Shown here piece by piece: positions 10,907 to 58,996 of a DNA stretch of 64,000 nucleotides. Under the pieces are notes generated by a model. The model saw nothing but the letters and a program-made list of their open reading frames with translations, did no database searches and was not told where the DNA came from. The stretch is from Candidatus Saccharimonadota bacterium. GTDB lineage: Bacteria > Patescibacteriota > Saccharimonadia > Saccharimonadales > Saccharimonadaceae. Each line of letters starts with the position of its first letter. Position 1 is the stretch's first letter. Both the position numbers and the translations under genes were made by a program. The stretch covers positions 124,001 through 188,000 of the forward strand of contig JAATFU010000005.1 in assembly GCA_015655045.1 (NCBI GenBank), read 5' to 3'.

Positions 10907-12037
10907 TTACGCATCGACACCAATCGCGTCGTAAATCGAGCTAAACCCATCAGCTCTCACTAATCTTGCGAGCTCTCGGTTAATTTGACCAATGAGCTGG
11001 GGGCCTTGAAAAATCATACCGGTAATTAATTCAACGAGACTTGCCCCTAGCCGTATCTTTGTGTAGGCATCTTGGGCCGAGAAGACGCCACCCACACCAA
11101 TAATCGTAAATCGCTTACCGTAGTGGGTATAGGTTTCTTTAATAAGACGATTGCTTAGTTCATAGGTTGGTTTACCACTTAGGCCACCCTTCACATAGTC
11201 AGGCAGCTCCTCGAGGAACGTAATCTTTGCTCGATCTTTCGTGAGGTTACAGATCGTAATACCACTCACGGTATGACGGGCTGCTACTTGAAGCAGATCA
11301 TCAAATTGCTTCCAGGTGAGATCACTGGGCATCTTTAGGAAAATGGGCTGAGCTAGCTTTACCTTATCAACTGCCGTAAGCAGTCGATCAAGACTCTGGG
11401 CTTGAGTAAAAGGTTCTCCACCGTAGGTGTTGGGGCAGGAAATATTAATGGTAATCATTGCTGCCACGGCTGTTTGCTTTACTTTGCGTAGTCCTCGTAT
11501 ACAGTCAGCTATCATGCCAGCTTCAGTGTGAACGCTCGGGATGTTTGTATGCGCAATAGAGACGTTGAGGGGAAAATTTGTGAAGGTATCTTTTGGATAC
11601 TTCTTGAGACGCGCCATTACCTGGTCGGCACCCTGATTACCCAGCCCGGCATGAACAACCAGTGATTTCGTGTGTGGCAAGCGGTAGAACCATGGGCGAG
11701 GATTACCAGGACCAAATTGATTTGTCACCGTTCCCCCTTCCATAAAACCAAAACCAATTGAGTGGAGGATGCGTGGTAATTCAATATTCTTATCAAAGCC
11801 CGCTGAGAGTCCAATGGGATTGGTAAAGACGATATCGTGAATAGTTTGCTTGAGAACCGGTAAGTCCTCATACGCATACGTAGTACGCAGTAATCGTCGC
11901 ACTACGCGATTCTTTTGCAGCCATGCACCCAGACGCAGCATATCACTATGAACCCTATCTGGACTCACCTTAAAGGCAATCGGTTTAACGACGGAACGAT
12001 AGATAGATCCACTAAGCTGGCTTACAAAAATAATCAT
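10907..12037 (-). CDS. pyrD: Quinone-type dihydroorotate dehydrogenase-like flavoprotein (376 aa)
   Basis: The fold and length are those of class 2 PyrD: an N-terminal amphipathic helix for quinone access (residues 1-40, with VSPDRVHSDML) and an FMN barrel (NPIGLSAGFDKN, ITICNLTKDR, GGLSGKPTYELSNRLI, GVGGVFSAQDAYTKI). The active site is unusual. The catalytic base, Ser175 in E. coli, is Cys here (NISCPNT), as in class 1 enzymes. The orotate-contact loop reads VVHAGLGNQG where E. coli has INRMGFNNLG, losing the Asn and Arg. No other pyrimidine genes are in the window. ATG 12037 fits the family N-terminus; a GTG start at 12052 is possible. It could feed electrons to the quinone used by the bo3 oxidase. 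Confidence 0.82.
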   Translation of the reverse strand: MIIFVSQLSGSIYRSVVKPIAFKVSPDRVHSDMLRLGAWLQKNRVVRRLLRTTYAYEDLPVLKQTIHDIVFTNPIGLSAGFDKNIELPRILHSIGFGFMEGGTVTNQFGPGNPRPWFYRLPHTKSLVVHAGLGNQGADQVMARLKKYPKDTFTNFPLNVSIAHTNIPSVHTEAGMIADCIRGLRKVKQTAVAAMITINISCPNTYGGEPFTQAQSLDRLLTAVDKVKLAQPIFLKMPSDLTWKQFDDLLQVAARHTVSGITICNLTKDRAKITFLEELPDYVKGGLSGKPTYELSNRLIKETYTHYGKRFTIIGVGGVFSAQDAYTKIRLGASLVELITGMIFQGPQLIGQINRELARLVRADGFSSIYDAIGVDA

Positions 12038-12135
12038 ACGAGACCTGAGCACTCCTTTGTTACAACGACATGTGGCAGAGTATTAGACGATTGAGTCATA
12101 TACATGCATAATAGGCTACGTACTCAACTTTTGTC

Positions 12136-12151
12136 TGTGACCTTTGTCACA
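12136..12151. promoter_or_regulatory. Perfect CRP-type box upstream of the CRP/FNR regulator gene
   Basis: TGTGAC-N4-GTCACA is a perfect dyad and matches the E. coli CRP consensus TGTGA-N6-TCACA at all ten positions. It ends 10 nt before ATG 12162, so binding there would block the gene (autorepression). It is also 99 nt from the divergent pyrD start. Confidence 0.8.
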
Positions 12152-12161
12152 TAGGATCTCT

Positions 12162-12797
12162 ATGGCACTCGATACTCACCCCGCTTCTTCTCTTACCGCC
12201 TTCTTTAGTCGCTTCCCTCAAAAGCATTTTGCAAAGGGGGAGCTTATTCTCTATCCAAGTGATGAGCACCTGCCGAAGATCACCTATATTGAAGAGGGTA
12301 TCGTTGCCCAGTACGCCATCCACGCGAGTGGCACAAAAGTTATTGTTAATATCTTTAAAGCGGGAGCCTTCTTCCCTGCCGCCTCGGCAGTTAACCACAC
12401 ACTGAACACCTACTTCTTTGAAGCGTCTACCGAGGTAACTGGTCGTCAAGCCGAGCCGCAGGCGGTCGAAGAACTCTTACATCACAATCCCGCTATTACC
12501 TACGATCTTCTACAACGAGTCTATCGAGGTACCGACGGGCTACTCGGTCGCCTGAGTCTATTGCTCGATGGTAGTGCTCGAAGTAAACTTCTTTACGAGT
12601 TGGTAATTAGTAGTGAACGATTTGGAGAAATTATCCCTGAGGGCCGATTGCTTCGTATTACCGAAGATGAACTAGCTCAGCAAATCGGTCTGGCACGCGA
12701 AACGGTGAGCCGAACCTTGAAAACATTACGCACCGAGGGTCTTGTCAGTCTACAGCGGGGAGCCATTCTGCTCTACAGCCACGCCCTTCAGGCATAG
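12162..12797 (+). CDS. CRP/FNR-family transcriptional regulator (211 aa)
   Basis: The N-terminal cyclic-nucleotide-binding-like beta-roll (residues about 20-120) is followed by a dimer helix and a winged helix. The recognition helix reads LARETVSRTLKTL, keeping the Arg-Glu...Arg residues with which E. coli CRP reads TGTGA. There are no Cys residues, so it is not an Fe-S FNR. The cAMP pocket residues of CRP are not obvious, so the ligand is unknown. AGGA lies 5 nt before ATG 12162; an upstream TTG at 12144 is inside the operator and less likely. The 3' end overlaps the convergent membrane-protein gene by 10 bp. Respiratory genes nearby make redox or energy control plausible. Confidence 0.88.
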   Translation: MALDTHPASSLTAFFSRFPQKHFAKGELILYPSDEHLPKITYIEEGIVAQYAIHASGTKVIVNIFKAGAFFPAASAVNHTLNTYFFEASTEVTGRQAEPQAVEELLHHNPAITYDLLQRVYRGTDGLLGRLSLLLDGSARSKLLYELVISSERFGEIIPEGRLLRITEDELAQQIGLARETVSRTLKTLRTEGLVSLQRGAILLYSHALQA

Positions 12798-13249
12798 GTA
12801 TCGGAACGAAACGATTGGAGGAGCGCGCTAAAATCTTTTTTCAACGACAAACTTGTATGACTCAGGTTACCGACAAAGCCATCTTTCGTTGGCGCCGCTA
12901 CATCACGGGCTAAGCGAAAGAGTAGTATAACCTTTGGGGTCTGAATAACGTCCGAGAGGGTCTGTAGCTTATCGACGAATTGTTTGATGGCTCGTCGCTG
13001 GGCTTTCGTCTGTGAGGGCATCACGTAGCGGATAATTAATTTTATCAAGATCGAAAAAGCAATAACAATGCTTACCGCGATAACAACAGGAATTCCCAAG
13101 AGCCACCACCATAGACTTATAGTAGTGAGCCATAGCGTACCTCCTATCAAGATAGCCGACAAAAGAGCTGCCATGATAACAACTGGGGTATAGACACGAT
13201 TGGCAAACTCCGTACCAATCGCCCGAATTACCAAAAGAGAAGCTTTCAT
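12788..13249 (-). CDS. Unknown two-helix membrane protein (153 aa)
   Basis: No family is recognised. There are two adjacent hydrophobic segments around residues 22-44 and 47-72 (VVIMAALLSAILIGGTLW and WWWLLGIPVVIAVSIVIAFS), then a basic cytoplasmic-looking tail with KAQRRAIKQFVDKLQTLSDV. A longer frame begins 12 codons upstream, but ATG 13249 is preferred: TATACT (13262-13257) ends 7 nt before it, and the intervening AGGAGGT is too close to the ATG to serve as a normal ribosome binding site. The layout is the same as at murA. Confidence 0.65.
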   Translation of the reverse strand: MKASLLVIRAIGTEFANRVYTPVVIMAALLSAILIGGTLWLTTISLWWWLLGIPVVIAVSIVIAFSILIKLIIRYVMPSQTKAQRRAIKQFVDKLQTLSDVIQTPKVILLFRLARDVAAPTKDGFVGNLSHTSLSLKKDFSALLQSFRSDTYA

Positions 13250-50011: not shown

Positions 50012-50476
50012 ATGAACAACAATTTTGAACATGATATCACGGACATGGTCACTCATGCCGTTACGAGCCTCGATCACTGGTACGGCGTTCAATCCGAAGA
50101 CGAAGAATTTGGTGCTGAGCTTCTCGATATTGCCGACGAACGACTTGGCCACGCCCTTGAACTCGCCCACCAGAGTCAGGAACTAAGCATTTACCTCTAC
50201 GTTGGACACACGGCACTTTCAACATTCCTCTTTAAGAGCCACGCCTATACGGCGAGTGTCACTCCGGGCAAAGATAGAGATATTCATCGCGCCTCAAGCC
50301 GCGTGGCCCTTACCTATGCCCATGACCATGTCGTAAACCCCGAATATCATAGGCTACCTCGACTATACGTGGGCGACTATCGCTCTATTCATAGCGAACT
50401 GCTGGCCACCACCTTAGCCCAGGGTGGTCGACTTGAGATTGTCTCTACCCTGCCCGATCAAGTATCGAAGGGGTAG
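50012..50476 (+). CDS. Unknown protein, first of a paralogous pair (154 aa)
   Basis: No family recognised. Soluble, helical N-terminal half and a C-terminal half ending with PRLYVGDYRSIHSELLATTL and LEIVSTLPD. The next gene's protein ends with a nearly matching block (PRMYVGSTFMIHSELLAQTL, LDIVSNLPD), so they are tandem paralogues. A leaderless promoter precedes it. It lies within the insertion between ruvA and ruvC. Confidence 0.6.
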   Translation: MNNNFEHDITDMVTHAVTSLDHWYGVQSEDEEFGAELLDIADERLGHALELAHQSQELSIYLYVGHTALSTFLFKSHAYTASVTPGKDRDIHRASSRVALTYAHDHVVNPEYHRLPRLYVGDYRSIHSELLATTLAQGGRLEIVSTLPDQVSKG

Positions 50477-50548
50477 GCTACAACCCCGGCTCCACACATG
50501 TCGGTTATGTTTTACGAATTATTGTCCGTACTATATACTCCTAACTAT

Positions 50549-51028
50549 ATGAGTGAACTTGTTGACCATCCTCGAATTCCAGACGTGCAAAAAGCTGCAG
50601 ATAATTTGCGGTACTGGTATCGACAAAAAGATACCGACAGTATTGGCCAGCTCAGAAGGGCAGAATGGGAACTGGGAACGGCTGAGAGAATTCTTGAAGA
50701 TGTTATACACGAGCTTGCCCGCTACCGCGATCAGACCTATCGAGTAGGTCTAAAAATTGGCGAACAGGCAGTGAGCGCTTTCACTTTTAGTCATAATTCC
50801 TATGACTTCCTTGAAATACAGCAATATAGTAGGCCACTCGAACCGGGTTCACAATTAAAGTTCAACCATGTTCGACCGGGCTTAGAAAATCCACTTTATC
50901 ACCCACGACCACGCATGTATGTCGGGAGTACCTTTATGATTCATTCTGAGCTCCTTGCCCAAACGTTATCCGAAAACGGCAGTCTTGATATTGTCTCTAA
51001 CCTGCCCGACTCATTAACGAGTGAGTAA
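50549..51028 (+). CDS. Unknown protein, second of a paralogous pair (159 aa)
   Basis: Shares the C-terminal 35-residue block with the preceding gene's product and a similar helical N-terminus (DVQKAADNLRYWY). ATG 50549 is preferred over the frame's first codon at 50498 since the paralogue aligns from there and TATACT lies 9 nt before it. The 3' end overlaps the convergent ruvC by 32 bp, an unusually long overlap that suggests the gene was placed here after ruvC existed. Confidence 0.6.
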   Translation: MSELVDHPRIPDVQKAADNLRYWYRQKDTDSIGQLRRAEWELGTAERILEDVIHELARYRDQTYRVGLKIGEQAVSAFTFSHNSYDFLEIQQYSRPLEPGSQLKFNHVRPGLENPLYHPRPRMYVGSTFMIHSELLAQTLSENGSLDIVSNLPDSLTSE

Positions 51029-52961: not shown

Positions 52962-53459
52962 CTATTTTACTCCCTGGGCGACATTATCATCAAATACAGC
53001 AATAGCACCAACCAGGATTGTTTTACGTTGTACAGTGCCGGCTGGAAGCTCAAGGACATAGGTTGCCTCAGACTTTGGCGTAAATACGATATTGGTCCCA
53101 TCCTCGATCGAGGCGTCTTTGACGATGTAGACTACTTTCTTATCCTGATTAAGCCAAACGATATCGAGTGGGACCTTCATATCTTTCATCCAGATCTGCC
53201 ATTTATCTGCAGCAGGAAAGATCATGAGTAAAGCCTGGTCAGCCGCCAAGTTATCGACTCCAGAGAGGCCCTTAACTCGAGCGGAGTCTGTCTTCGCAAC
53301 TCGAGCATGAAACACCCCATCTCCCAATGTAATCGTACTTGTACCCTGGAGCTTTGGAAATATAACTGCCACAACGACAGCAATGATCAAAAGCAGAACA
53401 CCCGCAATAATAGTCCGAACGAGGATATCTTTTGCATTTGCTGCTTTACTGCCTATCAT
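52962..53459 (-). CDS. DUF192 exported protein (165 aa)
   Basis: A signal anchor (residues about 12-36) precedes the small DUF192 beta fold: FHARVAKTDSARVKGLSGVD, LLMIFPAADKWQIWMKDMKV, PLDIVWLNQDKKVVYIVKDA. The conserved W-M-K-x-M and I-W-L segments fit the family, whose function is unknown. ATG 53459 is preferred over 53465: TGT TATACT (53475-53467) ends 7 nt before it. Confidence 0.85.
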   Translation of the reverse strand: MIGSKAANAKDILVRTIIAGVLLLIIAVVVAVIFPKLQGTSTITLGDGVFHARVAKTDSARVKGLSGVDNLAADQALLMIFPAADKWQIWMKDMKVPLDIVWLNQDKKVVYIVKDASIEDGTNIVFTPKSEATYVLELPAGTVQRKTILVGAIAVFDDNVAQGVK

Positions 53460-53466
53460 AGACATA

Positions 53467-53493: not shown

Positions 53494-54405
53494 TCAGGCG
53501 CCGATTTTATCTTTTTTGTTATTGCGTTTCGCATTAAGCTCAACGTACTCAATAATCGCGCTAGCTACGTCTCGACCGGTAACTTTCTCGATACCGAATC
53601 CAGGACTGGCGTTCACTTCCAAAATCAGCGGTCCACGAGCACTCCGCATCATATCAACACCCGCGACGTTGAGGCCCATAGCCTTTGCGGCCTTAATGAC
53701 CATCTTATTCTCTTCGTCGGTCAGCTTGACAATCGTTCCTTCTCCGCCTTTATGAAGGTTTGATCGAAAGTCATCATCAAGACTCTGTCGTTTCATACTT
53801 GCAACCACCCGACCACCGACCACGAATGCTCGAATATCAGTCCCGGCCGATTCTTTTACAAATTCTTGCAATAAGACGTTAGTGCCATCTTCGTTAGTTA
53901 GATAAAATGCCTGAAGAACCGACTTGGCTGCTTTTTTACTCTCGGCTAATACTACCCCATTACCATGGGTTCCTCGAGCAAGCTTAATAATGACTGGCAT
54001 GTCACCCAGTCGCTCTAGCAGCACATCAATATCGGTCGTGTTACGCGATACGACCGTCTTTGGAATACCAACTCCAGCTTTGGCAAGTAGCTGCATGCTG
54101 CGTAATTTATCGCGTGAACGATTAATGGCAATCGAGCTTGAGACAGTATAGGTACCTTGCATTTCAAGCTGACGCACGATAGCCGTGCCGTAACGACTCA
54201 TATTGGCGGCAATCCGAGGAATGATTGCATCAAACTTGCCCAGATCCTCGCCTTTATAGCTAACGGTTGGGTTATTCTTTTCAATCGAGGCATAGCAGTC
54301 ACGATATTTAACAATAGTTACTTCATGACCACGCTTTAACGCGACCTCTTTGAGTCGTTTGGTCGAATAGTTACCGGGTCCATTTGATAGAATGGCTATT
54401 TTCAT
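53494..54405 (-). CDS. rimK: RimK-family ATP-grasp glutamate ligase (303 aa)
   Basis: ATP-grasp amide ligase. N-terminal IAILSNGPGNYSTKRLKEV, the nucleotide lid VIIKLARGTHGNGVVLAES, VLLQEFVKESAGTDIRAFVV and the metal-binding ILEVNASPGFGIEKVTG place it in the RimK group. E. coli RimK adds Glu residues to the C-terminus of ribosomal protein S6; related enzymes act on cofactor F420 or small peptides, so the acceptor here is open. GGGAGAG lies 5 nt before the ATG, which overlaps the stop of the DTGA protease gene (ATGA). The pair is thus translationally coupled. Confidence 0.92.
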   Translation of the reverse strand: MKIAILSNGPGNYSTKRLKEVALKRGHEVTIVKYRDCYASIEKNNPTVSYKGEDLGKFDAIIPRIAANMSRYGTAIVRQLEMQGTYTVSSSIAINRSRDKLRSMQLLAKAGVGIPKTVVSRNTTDIDVLLERLGDMPVIIKLARGTHGNGVVLAESKKAAKSVLQAFYLTNEDGTNVLLQEFVKESAGTDIRAFVVGGRVVASMKRQSLDDDFRSNLHKGGEGTIVKLTDEENKMVIKAAKAMGLNVAGVDMMRSARGPLILEVNASPGFGIEKVTGRDVASAIIEYVELNAKRNNKKDKIGA

Positions 54406-54863
54406 AATTTCTCTCCCGAGTCGTTGTCTAATTCTTGATTTATGCGCACATCCACGAGCATATTATTTTGTCTAAGGAAGCGTCTTCCGATCAGGACCTC
54501 TCTTTGCATATTTGATCTATTAGATAAGCCTATATCCACAGTATAACGCGTGTTTCTGATAATAATATCTGTTTCAATAATATATCGTTTTACTTGAATA
54601 CCATTCGAACTTCGAACTCTTTTGACGGTATAGTTTTCCATTTCGATAACATGGTGTTGATTATCCGACGGAGTAAAGCGAAGGATTGCTTTATCATCTG
54701 TTTTTCGATGCTTTACCTCAATCATTTCGCAATGCACCGCCCCGGAATAGGCTCCCGTATCGATTTTTGCAATTGCGTCCACAATACCGAGCTGGGGCAA
54801 GGAGACTGCTTCAAAAGAGCCAAGAACGACGGTTGATTGAGTAGGGTTTGGTAAGCTTTTCAT
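54402..54863 (-). CDS. Retropepsin-like (PF05618 type) protease partner of RimK (153 aa)
   Basis: A small protein with the aspartic-protease-like motif AKIDTGAYSGAVHCEMIEV near residue 32 and a preceding GSFEAVSLPQLGI, both typical of the family once called ATP-dependent zinc protease and now seen as retropepsin-like. Later strands include VKRYIIETDIIIRNTRYTVD and REVLIGRRFL. In Pseudomonas a protein of this kind (RimB) removes the glutamate tail that RimK adds. Here the gene overlaps rimK by 4 bp. Catalysis is inferred from the DTGA motif only. Confidence 0.85.
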   Translation of the reverse strand: MKSLPNPTQSTVVLGSFEAVSLPQLGIVDAIAKIDTGAYSGAVHCEMIEVKHRKTDDKAILRFTPSDNQHHVIEMENYTVKRVRSSNGIQVKRYIIETDIIIRNTRYTVDIGLSNRSNMQREVLIGRRFLRQNNMLVDVRINQELDNDSGEKL

Positions 54864-54909
54864 ATATGCACGTCCAATTTGATTATTTTATCATATTCAT
54901 GTTATTAAG

Positions 54910-55911
54910 TCAATCCTTAGTAGCGTGTAGCCAGTCATCGATTAATGTAACAAGTAGAGGTACTATATCAAACATATTGCCGTCTCGACAGCCATAAAAC
55001 AATTTCAAAACGGGAGAAGTATTAAATTCAATGAACCAATAATTATCGTTTGTTTGTGGTGTGTATAGATCTGATATAAACATATCGATAACTACAAATG
55101 CAGTCTCTAATGTACTACTTAGTCGCTCAACCGTTTGTATGTACGAGGGGTCAATCGTAGCAAGGATATTGTAAACCGAACACCCATTCTTGATCATTGT
55201 TGCATGGCTTAACTCTAACACGTCATTCGTAGCCAATATATCTTCACTTGTAAATAGCCTAGGGTCAATCATCGTATCGTCTAGTTGGGGATAGTCAATG
55301 TAGGGGAACTTCAATCTCTCGCGTGCCTTATTCTCTGATCTTATAAGTTCAGCAATCGTAGAAACGCCATTTCCAATCAAGCGAGGTGTTTGACGAAGGA
55401 TTGCAGCTTGAACGTGGCCGTTGATGATAACAAACCGTACCTCCTCACCTTTAACTTGTTCTTGAATAATTACCTCAGGCGTAATAGTTCTGGCATACTC
55501 AAGCGCCTCACGGAGAGACTCGATGGAATCAATATTTAGTGTCAGTCCTCTTGATAATGATGAAGCATTAGGTTTCACAATTAATGTCCCGTATTGATCC
55601 AAGAGCTCTTTAATTTTGCTTTCACTGATTGATTCACCAGAAGCGATATGGTACGTATACGGTATAGATACCCCATTAGCTACGGCAAAGTTATACGCTA
55701 GATCTTTATTAATTGATAGTAAACCCATTTGTCGAGACGTAAAGGGGTATGATATATGTGCTGCTTGTGTCTTCCATTGTCTACCCGATGGGGCTGTATA
55801 TATCACCACAAGCTTGTTGTTTTGGCGCTCATGAGTAATTGTGTAGCCTTTTTTCTTAAACTCAATCTCTAATAATTTATACGACGCAAAAGGATCATCC
55901 TTAATATACAT
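54910..55911 (-). CDS. Second ATP-grasp ligase, cyanophycin-synthetase/GshAB-like (333 aa)
   Basis: An N-terminal alpha/beta part (residues about 1-75) leads to an ATP-grasp domain: TLIVKPNASSLSRGLTLNI, VIIQEQVKGEEVRFVIINGH, RQTPRLIGNGVSTIAELI and YWFIEFNTSPVLKLF (Glu-x-Asn metal site). The RxTPxxIxGxG segment is typical of cyanophycin synthetase and the GshAB C-terminal domain, so it should join amino acids or peptides by an amide bond. GAGGGG lies 8 nt before ATG 55911. It sits 31 nt after the DUF1704 protease gene and 46 nt before the DTGA protease gene. Confidence 0.82.
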   Translation of the reverse strand: MYIKDDPFASYKLLEIEFKKKGYTITHERQNNKLVVIYTAPSGRQWKTQAAHISYPFTSRQMGLLSINKDLAYNFAVANGVSIPYTYHIASGESISESKIKELLDQYGTLIVKPNASSLSRGLTLNIDSIESLREALEYARTITPEVIIQEQVKGEEVRFVIINGHVQAAILRQTPRLIGNGVSTIAELIRSENKARERLKFPYIDYPQLDDTMIDPRLFTSEDILATNDVLELSHATMIKNGCSVYNILATIDPSYIQTVERLSSTLETAFVVIDMFISDLYTPQTNDNYWFIEFNTSPVLKLFYGCRDGNMFDIVPLLVTLIDDWLHATKD

Positions 55912-55942
55912 TCCGATATCCCCTCTCAATTAATTGCTAATT

Positions 55943-57292
55943 TTATATGGTTTTTGTCTCGTACATAATGCGTTCGTGTGCCACATTACTTGGATCTGCT
56001 TTACCCAACAATACAAACATGAATTTTAAATCATCACCACGAATCGTTTCAAGGTGACGCCACATATCTATAGCTCCATTATAATACGCCAGGTCCTTAA
56101 ACCAAGGGAGTTCATCTGTTCCGCGATCAATTCGCATAGTTGCGCTATACGCACCTCCTTTGGCTTTTTCAATTGCAGCTTCGGTCACATCGGCAGACTC
56201 ATCAATGGCCTCTAAGAGTGATAGTCGCCATTTCGTCTCGAATACATCGCGGAAATCTTTCTGTTCAAAATAGGCCAAGCCAACGGTAACATAATGATCG
56301 ACACCTCGTTCACTGAATTTACCCTCTAGTGCTTGTTCCATCACCACGCCAAGACCTTCTTCGGCATCGTAGTATGGCTCAAGTCCGCTTTGAAGCAAGA
56401 GTAAATCTGTCTGTGCTCCCATGATTGATCTCATCACATGTACACCTACTTCATGCACCATGAGTTTACGCACCGAGTCACGAGTTGCATTATTCATATC
56501 CTCAGGGATAACGATACGTTTCTCACTTGTCTTTACGCTAACGGCCTTAGCGGGTTCGATATCGACACACCAATCTCTAGCGGCCTCTCCAAACTCCTCC
56601 TCTATTGCCTCCGTAAAAATAGCCTTGACATCAGGCGCAGTAAACACCTCTTGATCCTCAGGTATATGACTTAGAACTCCCCCATAGAGGGTCTCGACAA
56701 CATCATGCATCCACTCAACCGTCTCGGACGTTGGCGTAAACCGTTCATAAGGCGTAGTATTTGGGTTATACTCCACAAGCTCAAGAAGTTCTTTTTTTAT
56801 CTTTTGGGCCGACTCGCTTAGTAATTTAGCCTCGATCTTCTGTAGCTTCTCTTGAATAAGTGAACGATACACCGACTCCTGAGGCTGCCCATATAGTTCA
56901 ATGTTAAGCTCTGTGTATTCATCTTTGAGCACTTTGCGCTCCTCATCTGCGTGTGCGGCCTTAAATTGTCGAGCCACGTCCATCATGTCAAGTTGACGCA
57001 TATATCTATCAATAAATTCATGATAGGAATTAGCGTACTTTGGATTTAGCTCATCATGGGAAGCTATCTCACTATCTATTTCGGTAATATGTTGTCTCGT
57101 TGCATCAAGATCAAGCATCTCAAGCTTATTATAATAGTGGTCGGGGTTATGAATTCTTCCTGATAAGAAATCGTTCCGCTGTTGAATCCCACTAGCTTTG
57201 TCGGGAACAAAGTTGCTGACAAGTTTTGGATCCTCCTGAGTGAGCTCGCTATATAACTCCGGAATTGAGATTGTTCGGCCTAGCTGTTCCAT
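55943..57292 (-). CDS. DUF1704 (QEGLA / MATCAP-related) metallopeptidase (449 aa)
   Basis: The C-terminal half carries the zinc site RKLMVHEVGVHVMRS (HExxxH, residues about 278-292) and EPYYDAEEGLGVVMEQALEG, the motif that gave the QEGLA name. The N-terminal 200 residues are helical and coiled-coil rich. The bacterial family has no firm function; the eukaryotic relative MATCAP is a carboxypeptidase that trims the C-terminal tyrosine of alpha-tubulin. The gene is followed by an ATP-grasp ligase, so ligase and tail-cutting protease are paired. The upstream DNA is very AT-rich with no ribosome binding site. Confidence 0.82.
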   Translation of the reverse strand: MEQLGRTISIPELYSELTQEDPKLVSNFVPDKASGIQQRNDFLSGRIHNPDHYYNKLEMLDLDATRQHITEIDSEIASHDELNPKYANSYHEFIDRYMRQLDMMDVARQFKAAHADEERKVLKDEYTELNIELYGQPQESVYRSLIQEKLQKIEAKLLSESAQKIKKELLELVEYNPNTTPYERFTPTSETVEWMHDVVETLYGGVLSHIPEDQEVFTAPDVKAIFTEAIEEEFGEAARDWCVDIEPAKAVSVKTSEKRIVIPEDMNNATRDSVRKLMVHEVGVHVMRSIMGAQTDLLLLQSGLEPYYDAEEGLGVVMEQALEGKFSERGVDHYVTVGLAYFEQKDFRDVFETKWRLSLLEAIDESADVTEAAIEKAKGGAYSATMRIDRGTDELPWFKDLAYYNGAIDMWRHLETIRGDDLKFMFVLLGKADPSNVAHERIMYETKTI

Positions 57293-57332
57293 TATAATCT
57301 ATATATTATCATAATAATATATAATTGTCAAT

Positions 57333-57842
57333 CTAGGCTTCTCTTCTCATAATGACCTGTCGTGCTCCAAAGAAATTTTTCTCACAAGGTCTAACTTCAT
57401 AAAAACCATACTTCACATAGAGCGCCTTGGCGACTACGTTATCGTTAACTACAGTTAATTCTATTGCTGTTCCCGGTTGGATTTGATCCAGGAGCTCCGA
57501 GAGTAAAATAGAACCAACACCCTTCTTATGTTCTAGGGGGTCGACAAATAGGCTTTTTAATTGTATTTCTGAGCGATCTAACTTATGGGCTATTATATAT
57601 CCAACTACTACCCCCTTAATTTCAGCAACACGAATTGTCCAACCTAAACTATTTAGTTTGCGATTAATACTTGAAATAAAGCGTTGGCGTTTATGCGTAG
57701 AAGGACGATATCTATCGTGAAAAGTAGTAAGGTACTCACGTGGAATGAGCGCGGTATAGTAGGTGTGAAGATGCGCACGGCAAGAGATAGCGTAAAGACT
57801 ACTTGCATCCTCCTTGCGGGCTGAACGAACTATAGTTTCCAT
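57333..57842 (-). CDS. GNAT-family N-acetyltransferase (169 aa)
   Basis: IVRSARKEDASSLYAISCRAH is the first strand and helix, VVVGYIIAHKLDRSEIQLKS the central strands, and LFVDPLEHKKGVGSILLSEL holds the acetyl-CoA loop (H-K-K-G-V-G in place of Q/R-x-x-G-x-G/A). ALYVKYGFYEVRP ends the fold. Target unknown; a neighbouring peptide-ligase cluster makes an amino-group acceptor plausible. TATATT ends 7 nt before the ATG. It is first in the row GNAT, DUF1704, ATP-grasp, DTGA protease, RimK. Confidence 0.85.
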   Translation of the reverse strand: METIVRSARKEDASSLYAISCRAHLHTYYTALIPREYLTTFHDRYRPSTHKRQRFISSINRKLNSLGWTIRVAEIKGVVVGYIIAHKLDRSEIQLKSLFVDPLEHKKGVGSILLSELLDQIQPGTAIELTVVNDNVVAKALYVKYGFYEVRPCEKNFFGARQVIMRREA

Positions 57843-57892: not shown

Positions 57893-58996
57893 CTACCGAC
57901 TTGCCTGCGCTATTTGCTCTAGTAATTCTTTCTGTTTTTTCGAGAGCTTGGTAGGTGTATCAACGATAATGCTGACAATATGCGGGCCACGTTTGTCGCT
58001 GCGCATATGTGGCACTCCATGGTTTGAAAGTTTAAAATCAGTACCAGATTGCGTCCCGGCCGGTATCTTCATGCGCACTTCTCCATCTACGGTTGGTACG
58101 TCAATCTCGGTACCAAGCGCCGCTTCTACCATACCGATGTGCTGTTCGGATAAAATAATATCCCCTTCACGCGTGAAGCGCTTGTGCGCCTTGACCCGAA
58201 TATGTACATAGAGATCGCCTCGCTTACCGCCACCAATTGCTTCACCGCGTTCGCTCAAGCGGATGGTCGAGCCATCATCGATACCAGCAGGAACCTTGAG
58301 GGCAATGGTCTGCTTGCGACGCTCCGTACCTTTTCCGTGGCAGACAGTACAAACTTTCTCAGGCACCTTGCCTTTACCACCACAAGTTTCACAGGTTACG
58401 TTCTGTTGAATCGGGCCAAACATTGTGTTCATAACGCGCGTTTGTTGTCCCGCACCCTTACAGGTTGGACATGTCTTCATTTCGTAGCCTGGCTCAACTG
58501 TTGTTCCGTGACAATGCGAACACTCATCGTCCATATCAAGTTCAATCTTTTCTTCAACACCAAAGATAGCTTCTTCGAAGCTTAGCTGGAGACTTACCTC
58601 GATATCGCGACCACGCTGTGGCCCTCGTTGTTGGTTACTCGCACCGCCACCAAAGAATTGGCCAAAAATATCACCGAGGCCGCCATCACCAAAATCGAAG
58701 TGAACGTTCTGCCCACCAAAGCCACCGCCAAAGCCTTCAAAAGGATTACCACCTGGCTGGCCACCACCACCTGAAGCTCCACCAACGCCGGCATGCCCAA
58801 ATTGATCATAGCGTTGCCGCTTTTGGCTATCCTTGAGGACATCATACGCTTCGTTGATTTCCTTGAATTTCTCTTCGTTACCACCTTCTTTATCTGGATG
58901 ATGTTGCACCGCCGCCTTTCGGTAGGCTTTTTTAAGTTCGTCAGCAGAAGCATTCTTACTGACACCAAGGACTTCATAATAATCACGCTTACTCAT
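57893..58996 (-). CDS. dnaJ: Chaperone DnaJ (367 aa)
   Basis: A co-chaperone that stimulates DnaK ATPase. J domain with HPD ([20 protein letters not shown]), Gly/Phe-rich linker, four CxxCxGxG repeats of the zinc region ([31 protein letters not shown]-like TVCHGKG) and the C-terminal substrate domain are all present. It has its own CIRCE-controlled promoter rather than reading through from dnaK. TACAAT ends 8 nt before the ATG and no ribosome binding site is visible. Confidence 0.97.

Follow-up and report, generated by a model that had tools for sequence, protein, structure and literature searches.

What does an ultra-small bacterium do with two peptide ligases and two peptidases encoded side by side? 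The question is raised by a 64,000-nucleotide stretch (the window) of an 848 kb Saccharibacterium genome (contig JAATFU010000005.1, positions 124,001 to 188,000), in which five intact minus-strand open reading frames, flanked by dnaJ and a DUF192 gene, encode in order a GNAT acetyltransferase, a MATCAP metallopeptidase, an ATP-grasp ligase, a retropepsin-like protease and the ligase RimK. From the bare sequence, the original prediction had proposed two writer/eraser pairs forming a dual tail-modification system. Our analysis leads us to favor, tentatively, a related reading that may well be right: that the locus is a RimK-anchored system for writing and trimming C-terminal peptide tails on a protein or peptide, with an accessory part that is exchangeable.

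A variable interval between dnaJ and rimK

The genes of the locus and its borders are as follows.

57893 to 58996, minus strand: dnaJ, the conserved left border of a variable interval (the border in 72 loci)
57333 to 57842, minus strand: GNAT N-acetyltransferase, 169 amino acids (PF00583)
55943 to 57292, minus strand: MATCAP/DUF1704 (QEGLA) metallopeptidase, 449 amino acids, a predicted C-terminal tail trimmer (PF08014)
54910 to 55911, minus strand: ATP-grasp amino-acid or peptide ligase of the cyanophycin-synthetase/GshAB type, about 333 amino acids (TIGR02068, TIGR03103)
54402 to 54863, minus strand: RimB-like retropepsin, 153 amino acids (PF05618, NF052261)
53494 to 54405, minus strand: RimK of the ribosomal protein S6 L-glutamate ligase type, 303 amino acids (NF007764)
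52962 to 53465, minus strand: DUF192 protein, a frequent right neighbour of rimK (PF02643, 80.6 bits, and synteny)

The coordinates bear out the gene order, strand, spacing and overlap first described, provided that the ATP-grasp gene is read from its ATG: the intergenic gaps are then 40, 31 and 46 nt, and the retropepsin and RimK genes overlap by 4 bp. This ATG, at 55911, lies after GAGAGGGG; a TTG at 55929 is also open and was the start used in the mechanical list of reading frames.

We examined RimK-centred loci in a sample of 121 genomes of the family, labelling genes with profiles made from the window proteins. Matches to RimK were found in 100 genomes, to the retropepsin in 88, to MATCAP in 44 and to the ligase in 34; a scan of genome contigs with the window ATP-grasp itself gave no match, and the same scan with RimK gave matches. 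In this family rimK usually lies behind dnaJ, and the 72 resolved dnaJ-rimK intervals fall into 47 arrangements, with a retropepsin in 69 (as the sole content in eight), an extra ATP-grasp gene in 51, MATCAP in 35 and GNAT in 8. The exact five-gene order is shared by six genera (the window genome, G118, G037, G070, G029 and the contig-limited G083), although the ligase of G118 is of a different type (26% identity). A second, partly overlapping genome set contains the five-gene order in L082 and L086 and the order GNAT, ATP-grasp, retropepsin, RimK, lacking MATCAP, in L096, L098 and L101. TM7i (L087) has a minimal locus, with the retropepsin and RimK alone. Because five-gene and MATCAP-less orders both occur, the modules combine freely.

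These counts qualify the expectation that the five-gene order would be conserved: it does recur in other genera, but as only one among many arrangements. The linkage itself is non-random: of the family's 51 MATCAP genes, 33 have RimK within 12 kb, far over chance expectation (binomial 5e-38, relatedness ignored). The label "dual" proved too narrow, as the numbers of extra ligases and MATCAPs vary and a Mur ligase, an S51 peptidase or a MurL-like epimerase is sometimes present. The shared theme of the interval cargo is peptide-bond chemistry outside the ribosome.

Several individual intervals were recorded in their own right. Near rimK, L188 (10726-12009) and L200 (10807-12087) carry a separate gene for the Mur-ligase half of cyanophycin synthetase, which in L188 adjoins a cassette ATP-grasp to give a split cyanophycin-type synthetase. 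L199 (6143-6880) has an S51 peptidase of the cyanophycinase/PepE-like kind within the interval, with relatives in L149 and L187, and the interval of L204 holds a MurL-like epimerase (11597-12922), of a family that inverts terminal L-Glu, flanked by ATP-grasp ligases. Some intervals encode GT4 glycosyltransferases and an ATP-grasp of the L-amino-acid-ligase type, and a few (L159, L162) contain unrelated genes. Two families of large proteins with no clear Pfam match are also found (L126:16349-19237 and L126:13627-16245), one with about 18-26 hydrophobic segments and the other with a signal-like start and about 6-8 such segments.

Partners of the retropepsin and of MATCAP

The original prediction had paired the retropepsin with RimK and MATCAP with the other ligase. 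We compared sequence identities across the 66 loci that have an unfused retropepsin, counting a ligase type as shared at 40% identity or more. Retropepsin identity correlated at r=0.11 with that of RimK and at 0.28-0.49 with a shared cassette ligase; its mean was 55% where the ligase type was shared versus 34% where neither ligase nor MATCAP was (permutation p=0.001), and RimK identity was about 73-74% in ligase-sharing and non-sharing pairs alike. Among the five-gene loci, the RimK of G029 is 68-70% identical to the others (which are 86-90% identical to one another), and yet in retropepsin, ligase and MATCAP this locus is no more distant from the others than they are from one another. A fusion of the retropepsin, at one end or the other, to a non-RimK ATP-grasp occurs in 17 loci. 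Because its identity follows the cassette ligase and not RimK, and because of these fusions, the retropepsin belongs to the exchangeable cassette, and the pairs as first drawn are not supported. Judged by sequence comparison, the module is a cassette of ligase and retropepsin, with or without MATCAP and GNAT, set beside a constant RimK.

The link between MATCAP and ATP-grasp ligases extends well beyond the window genome, as the original prediction of linked tail ligases and peptidases would have it, and often takes the form of a single polypeptide. At 30 MATCAP loci from other Patescibacteria, an ATP-grasp is fused to MATCAP in 15 and adjacent in 13 (28 of 30). The fused proteins (L282-L284, L286, L287, L289-L296, L299 and L301) are about 670-830 amino acids long, with an N-terminal ATP-grasp that matches the glutamate-ligase-like TIGR02291 and a C-terminal MATCAP; in some, a local profile picked up a weak retropepsin-like stretch between the domains, which Pfam did not confirm. 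L297 carries, in a row, a ligase-retropepsin fusion, a MATCAP and a tandem ligase. On plasmids of Shinella, Aminobacter, Pararhizobium and Roseateles, MATCAP lies between an N-formylglutamate amidohydrolase (FGase) and a GshB-like ATP-grasp, the three genes being consecutive in an alphaproteobacterial example (L344:4457-8201), and is annotated merely as a "flavohemoglobin expression-modulating QEGLA motif protein"; a Vibrio plasmid (L343:5113-7104) encodes the FGase domain and MATCAP in one protein. The link is not universal, as Vibrio and Pseudoalteromonas MATCAP copies have no neighbouring ligase. Our literature search found no account of the locus or of a bacterial MATCAP-ATP-grasp link; the amidoligase survey of Iyer et al. 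(2009) was outside that search, which leaves priority uncertain.

The family assignments rest on profiles, active-site motifs and predicted folds. MATCAP scores 60.2 bits against PF08014 (cut-off 27) and 54.1 bits against the QEGLA protein family TIGR02421, under the curated cut-off of 338.65. Its HExxxH and EEG motifs (H280, E281, H285; E311, E312, G313) are invariant or almost so among 27 aligned relatives, and a profile search of solved structures matched human MATCAP (7z5g, E=1.4e-9) with the metal-site motifs aligned. Human MATCAP was also the sole significant Foldseek match of the AlphaFold2 model (pLDDT 94.6), at E=2.4e-5 and modest TM scores of 0.36/0.47. The retropepsin scores 61.1 bits against PF05618 (cut-off 27) and 72.7 bits against the RimB equivalog NF052261, under its cut-off of 200; its DTGA motif (D35-T36-G37-A38) is invariant in aligned relatives, and it matches a "putative ATP-dependent zinc protease" of the retropepsin family (PDB 9g59, E=8.5e-16). 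RimK passes the curated S6-ligase cut-off narrowly (NF007764, 332.2 versus 331 bits) and matches the RimK-type ligase 7qyr (E=1.2e-93).

For the cassette ATP-grasp, the best family is cyanophycin synthetase (TIGR02068), at 99.7 bits against a cut-off of 850 and over the ATP-grasp domain alone. Its conserved active-site residues are K119, D282, E301 and N303 in an alignment of relatives; it matches cyanophycin synthase 7wac (E=6e-66), and its model (pLDDT 92.9) matches GshAB and CphA1/CphA2 in Foldseek. Enzymes of the CphA/GshAB kind work by activating a carboxylate and coupling an amino acid to it. The model of N-acetylglutaminylglutamine (NAGGN) synthetase, TIGR03103, gives 96 bits for the ligase and 23.6 for GNAT, far under the cut-off of 569, and the two are separate genes, a result that speaks against a NAGGN synthetase. 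GNAT (PF00583, 50 bits) has orthologues of 36-40% identity in five further cassettes and accompanies an ATP-grasp in the three MATCAP-less loci above; by its distribution it goes with the cassette ATP-grasp. A role as RimI, the S18 acetyltransferase, was rejected for GNAT at 49.2 bits against TIGR01575 (cut-off 86.4).

A proposed tail-editing mechanism and its rivals

In the mechanism we propose, the cassette ATP-grasp would turn a C-terminal carboxylate into an acyl phosphate, to which an amino acid would then be joined, as happens in CphA, GshAB and RimK. The co-inherited retropepsin would cut inside the tail product, the MATCAP peptidase would take residues off its C-terminus, and GNAT, whose occurrence tracks the ligase, may cap an amino group. 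We infer each of these activities, as well as which amino acids are added and to what acceptor, from what was observed directly: the genes, their active sites, linkage and fusion, and the co-inheritance of retropepsin and ligase. The reading is drawn from the family and active-site assignments, the ligase- and peptidase-filled interval, the proximity of MATCAP to RimK, the fusions, the FGase operons and the co-variation of the retropepsin, and further from the C-terminus of the organism's own S6, the placement of MATCAP upstream of rpsF in one relative, and the known activities of RimB and of the human MATCAP-family proteins TMCP1/2.

Ribosomal protein S6 is a plausible acceptor of RimK. RimK extends the C-terminus of S6 with glutamate; RimB removes polyglutamate from S6 and stimulates RimK (PMC11957791). 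The S6 of the window genome ends in ...RASHDAVEEE, and in genome G120 MATCAP (L266:5011-7001) lies between a helicase-like gene and rpsF, which encodes S6, a few hundred nt upstream of rpsF.

Several observations weigh against a tail-writing system. A terminal Glu on S6 is found in 26 of 30 RimK-bearing and 13 of 20 RimK-less genomes, an enrichment that is not significant (Fisher p=0.09), and the S6 of some RimK-bearing genomes ends in A or D; S6 was accordingly rejected as a proven acceptor. A placement of MATCAP beside rpsF as a rule was likewise rejected, as it occurs in G120 only and not in other readable loci of that genus. Retropepsin and ligase could owe their co-inheritance to physical linkage during transfer, although the break would then separate the retropepsin from RimK, two genes that share 4 bp in the window. 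The enzymes most closely related to the cassette ligase produce free peptides or polymers, and the cyanophycin-synthetase and cyanophycinase-like genes of some cassettes point to polymer chemistry. Tail modification as first proposed is sustained in its recurrent ligase/peptidase linkage but not in its writer/eraser pairing or its dual nature, and the data are compatible with either a protein tail or a free peptide.

The strongest rival, and a credible one that we rate as a lesser but serious possibility, is small-peptide or polymer metabolism, in which the ATP-grasp together with GNAT yields, as an osmolyte or store, either an N-acylated di- or oligopeptide in free form or a cyanophycin- or polyglutamate-like polymer, the retropepsin and MATCAP recycle the product, and RimK also makes free poly-alpha-glutamate. 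RimK does make free poly-glutamate, with stimulation by RimB (PMC11957791). Cyanophycin synthetase and NAGGN synthetase, the latter a GNAT and ATP-grasp fusion, are the top-scoring families for the cassette ligase; related cassettes include the Mur-ligase half of a split cyanophycin synthetase and an S51/cyanophycinase-like peptidase, and Proteobacterial MATCAP operons contain an FGase and a GshB-like ligase. Yet the window ligase is without the other CphA domains and far under the CphA and NAGGN family cut-offs, the scanned neighbours include no other gene of the NAGGN set, and for the characterized MATCAP enzymes in the papers that we found, the substrates are protein tails (PMC10499314).

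A cassette that makes a modified peptide for secretion or a surface polymer, such as a graspetide-like ribosomally synthesized and post-translationally modified peptide (RiPP) or a cell-wall side chain, exchanged under host or phage pressure, would fit the hypervariable content of the interval and the glycosyltransferases, MurL-like terminal-Glu epimerase and large membrane proteins found in some intervals. We consider it unlikely: hydropathy showed no transmembrane-like segments in any of the five window proteins, and a defence-system search with PADLOC returned trivial matches only, none of note. The RiPP form was rejected, as gaps of at most 46 nt in the window are too short to hold a precursor peptide gene. 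More improbable still is an ordinary RimB-RimK pair, the genes between dnaJ and rimB being chance insertions unrelated to it. The eight retropepsin-only intervals indicate that the core can exist without cassette genes, and unrelated genes do occur in a few intervals (L159, L162), but the cargo consists chiefly of peptide ligases and peptidases, MATCAP and ATP-grasp are repeatedly linked and, in other lineages, joined as fusions, and the retropepsin follows the cassette rather than RimK.

Known counterparts and wider meaning

The locus is a variant of the RimB-RimK kind. It shares with RimABK of Pseudomonas (PMC11957791, PMC4741518) a RimK orthologue above the cut-off and an adjoining RimB-like retropepsin, and a RimB-RimK hybrid protein is known (same sources). 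It differs in that no RimA is seen alongside, the divergent retropepsin tracks a second ligase and is fused in the family to non-RimK partners, and MATCAP, GNAT and further ligases are added. With RloABC of Pseudomonas aeruginosa (PMC12239564) it has in common a retropepsin beside a non-RimK ATP-grasp, and the TIGR02291-matching ligase that other Patescibacteria fuse to MATCAP would, in our judgement, resemble RloC. Unlike RloABC, it has no RloB transglutaminase/7TM (seven-transmembrane) gene between dnaJ and DUF192, its retropepsin has no transmembrane or signal-like segment by hydropathy, and its ligase is of the cyanophycin-synthetase type.

Among ATP-grasp enzymes, cyanophycin synthetase, GshAB and NAGGN synthetase are nearest by sequence profile and predicted fold, whereas the window ligase stands alone, without the N-terminal and Mur-ligase domains of CphA and without a fused GNAT. 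The FGase-QEGLA-GshB-like operon of Proteobacteria likewise sets a MATCAP-family gene beside an ATP-grasp ligase but has an FGase, and no retropepsin or RimK is annotated in the stretches examined. The TTL/TTLL writers of tubulin are also of the ATP-grasp type. The tubulin tyrosine/glutamate cycle resembles the locus in combining an ATP-grasp-type writer with a MATCAP-family trimmer (TMCP) whose catalytic motif is kept, and the parallel is stronger than originally appreciated: human TMCP1/2 trim tubulin C-termini and also remove or shorten polyglutamate (PMC10499314). The window system, in contrast, is bacterial, its ligase lies outside the TTL family and the sequence similarity is remote.

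Two further features of the region are predicted promoter sites from a consensus scan.

57303 to 57331, minus strand: sigma-70-like promoter TTGACA-17-TAATAT, with TG ahead of the second hexamer, ending 10 nt before the MATCAP start
54885 to 54913, minus strand: sigma-70-like promoter TTGACT-17-TAAAAT, with TG ahead of the second hexamer, upstream of the retropepsin

The region holds no more of these sites than expected by chance, and a consensus scan is no proof that they function. Because promoter-like sites precede MATCAP and the retropepsin, a single transcript for all five genes is not established. Elsewhere in the window (50012-51028, plus strand), two adjoining small genes share the C-terminal motif YVG..IHSELLA.TL and appear to be tandem paralogues.

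A bolder proposal, which we regard as speculative and rather doubtful, is that Saccharibacteria have a combinatorial C-terminal tail code, in which a constant RimK and exchangeable ligases and peptidases would write and erase Glu, Asp/Arg, D-Glu and acetyl tails on ribosomal or other proteins, with the tubulin TTL(L)-MATCAP cycle descending from bacterial MATCAP-ATP-grasp pairs. If tail editing is indeed the function, bacteria would have a modular equivalent of reversible tail editing, mainly seen as a tubulin speciality, with writer and eraser either encoded side by side or joined in a single protein, and the fusions could be expressed and assayed. It would give a testable function to the bacterial MATCAP/QEGLA family, for which we found no known activity in the literature, and would explain why these ultra-small genomes keep several peptide ligases beside RimK.

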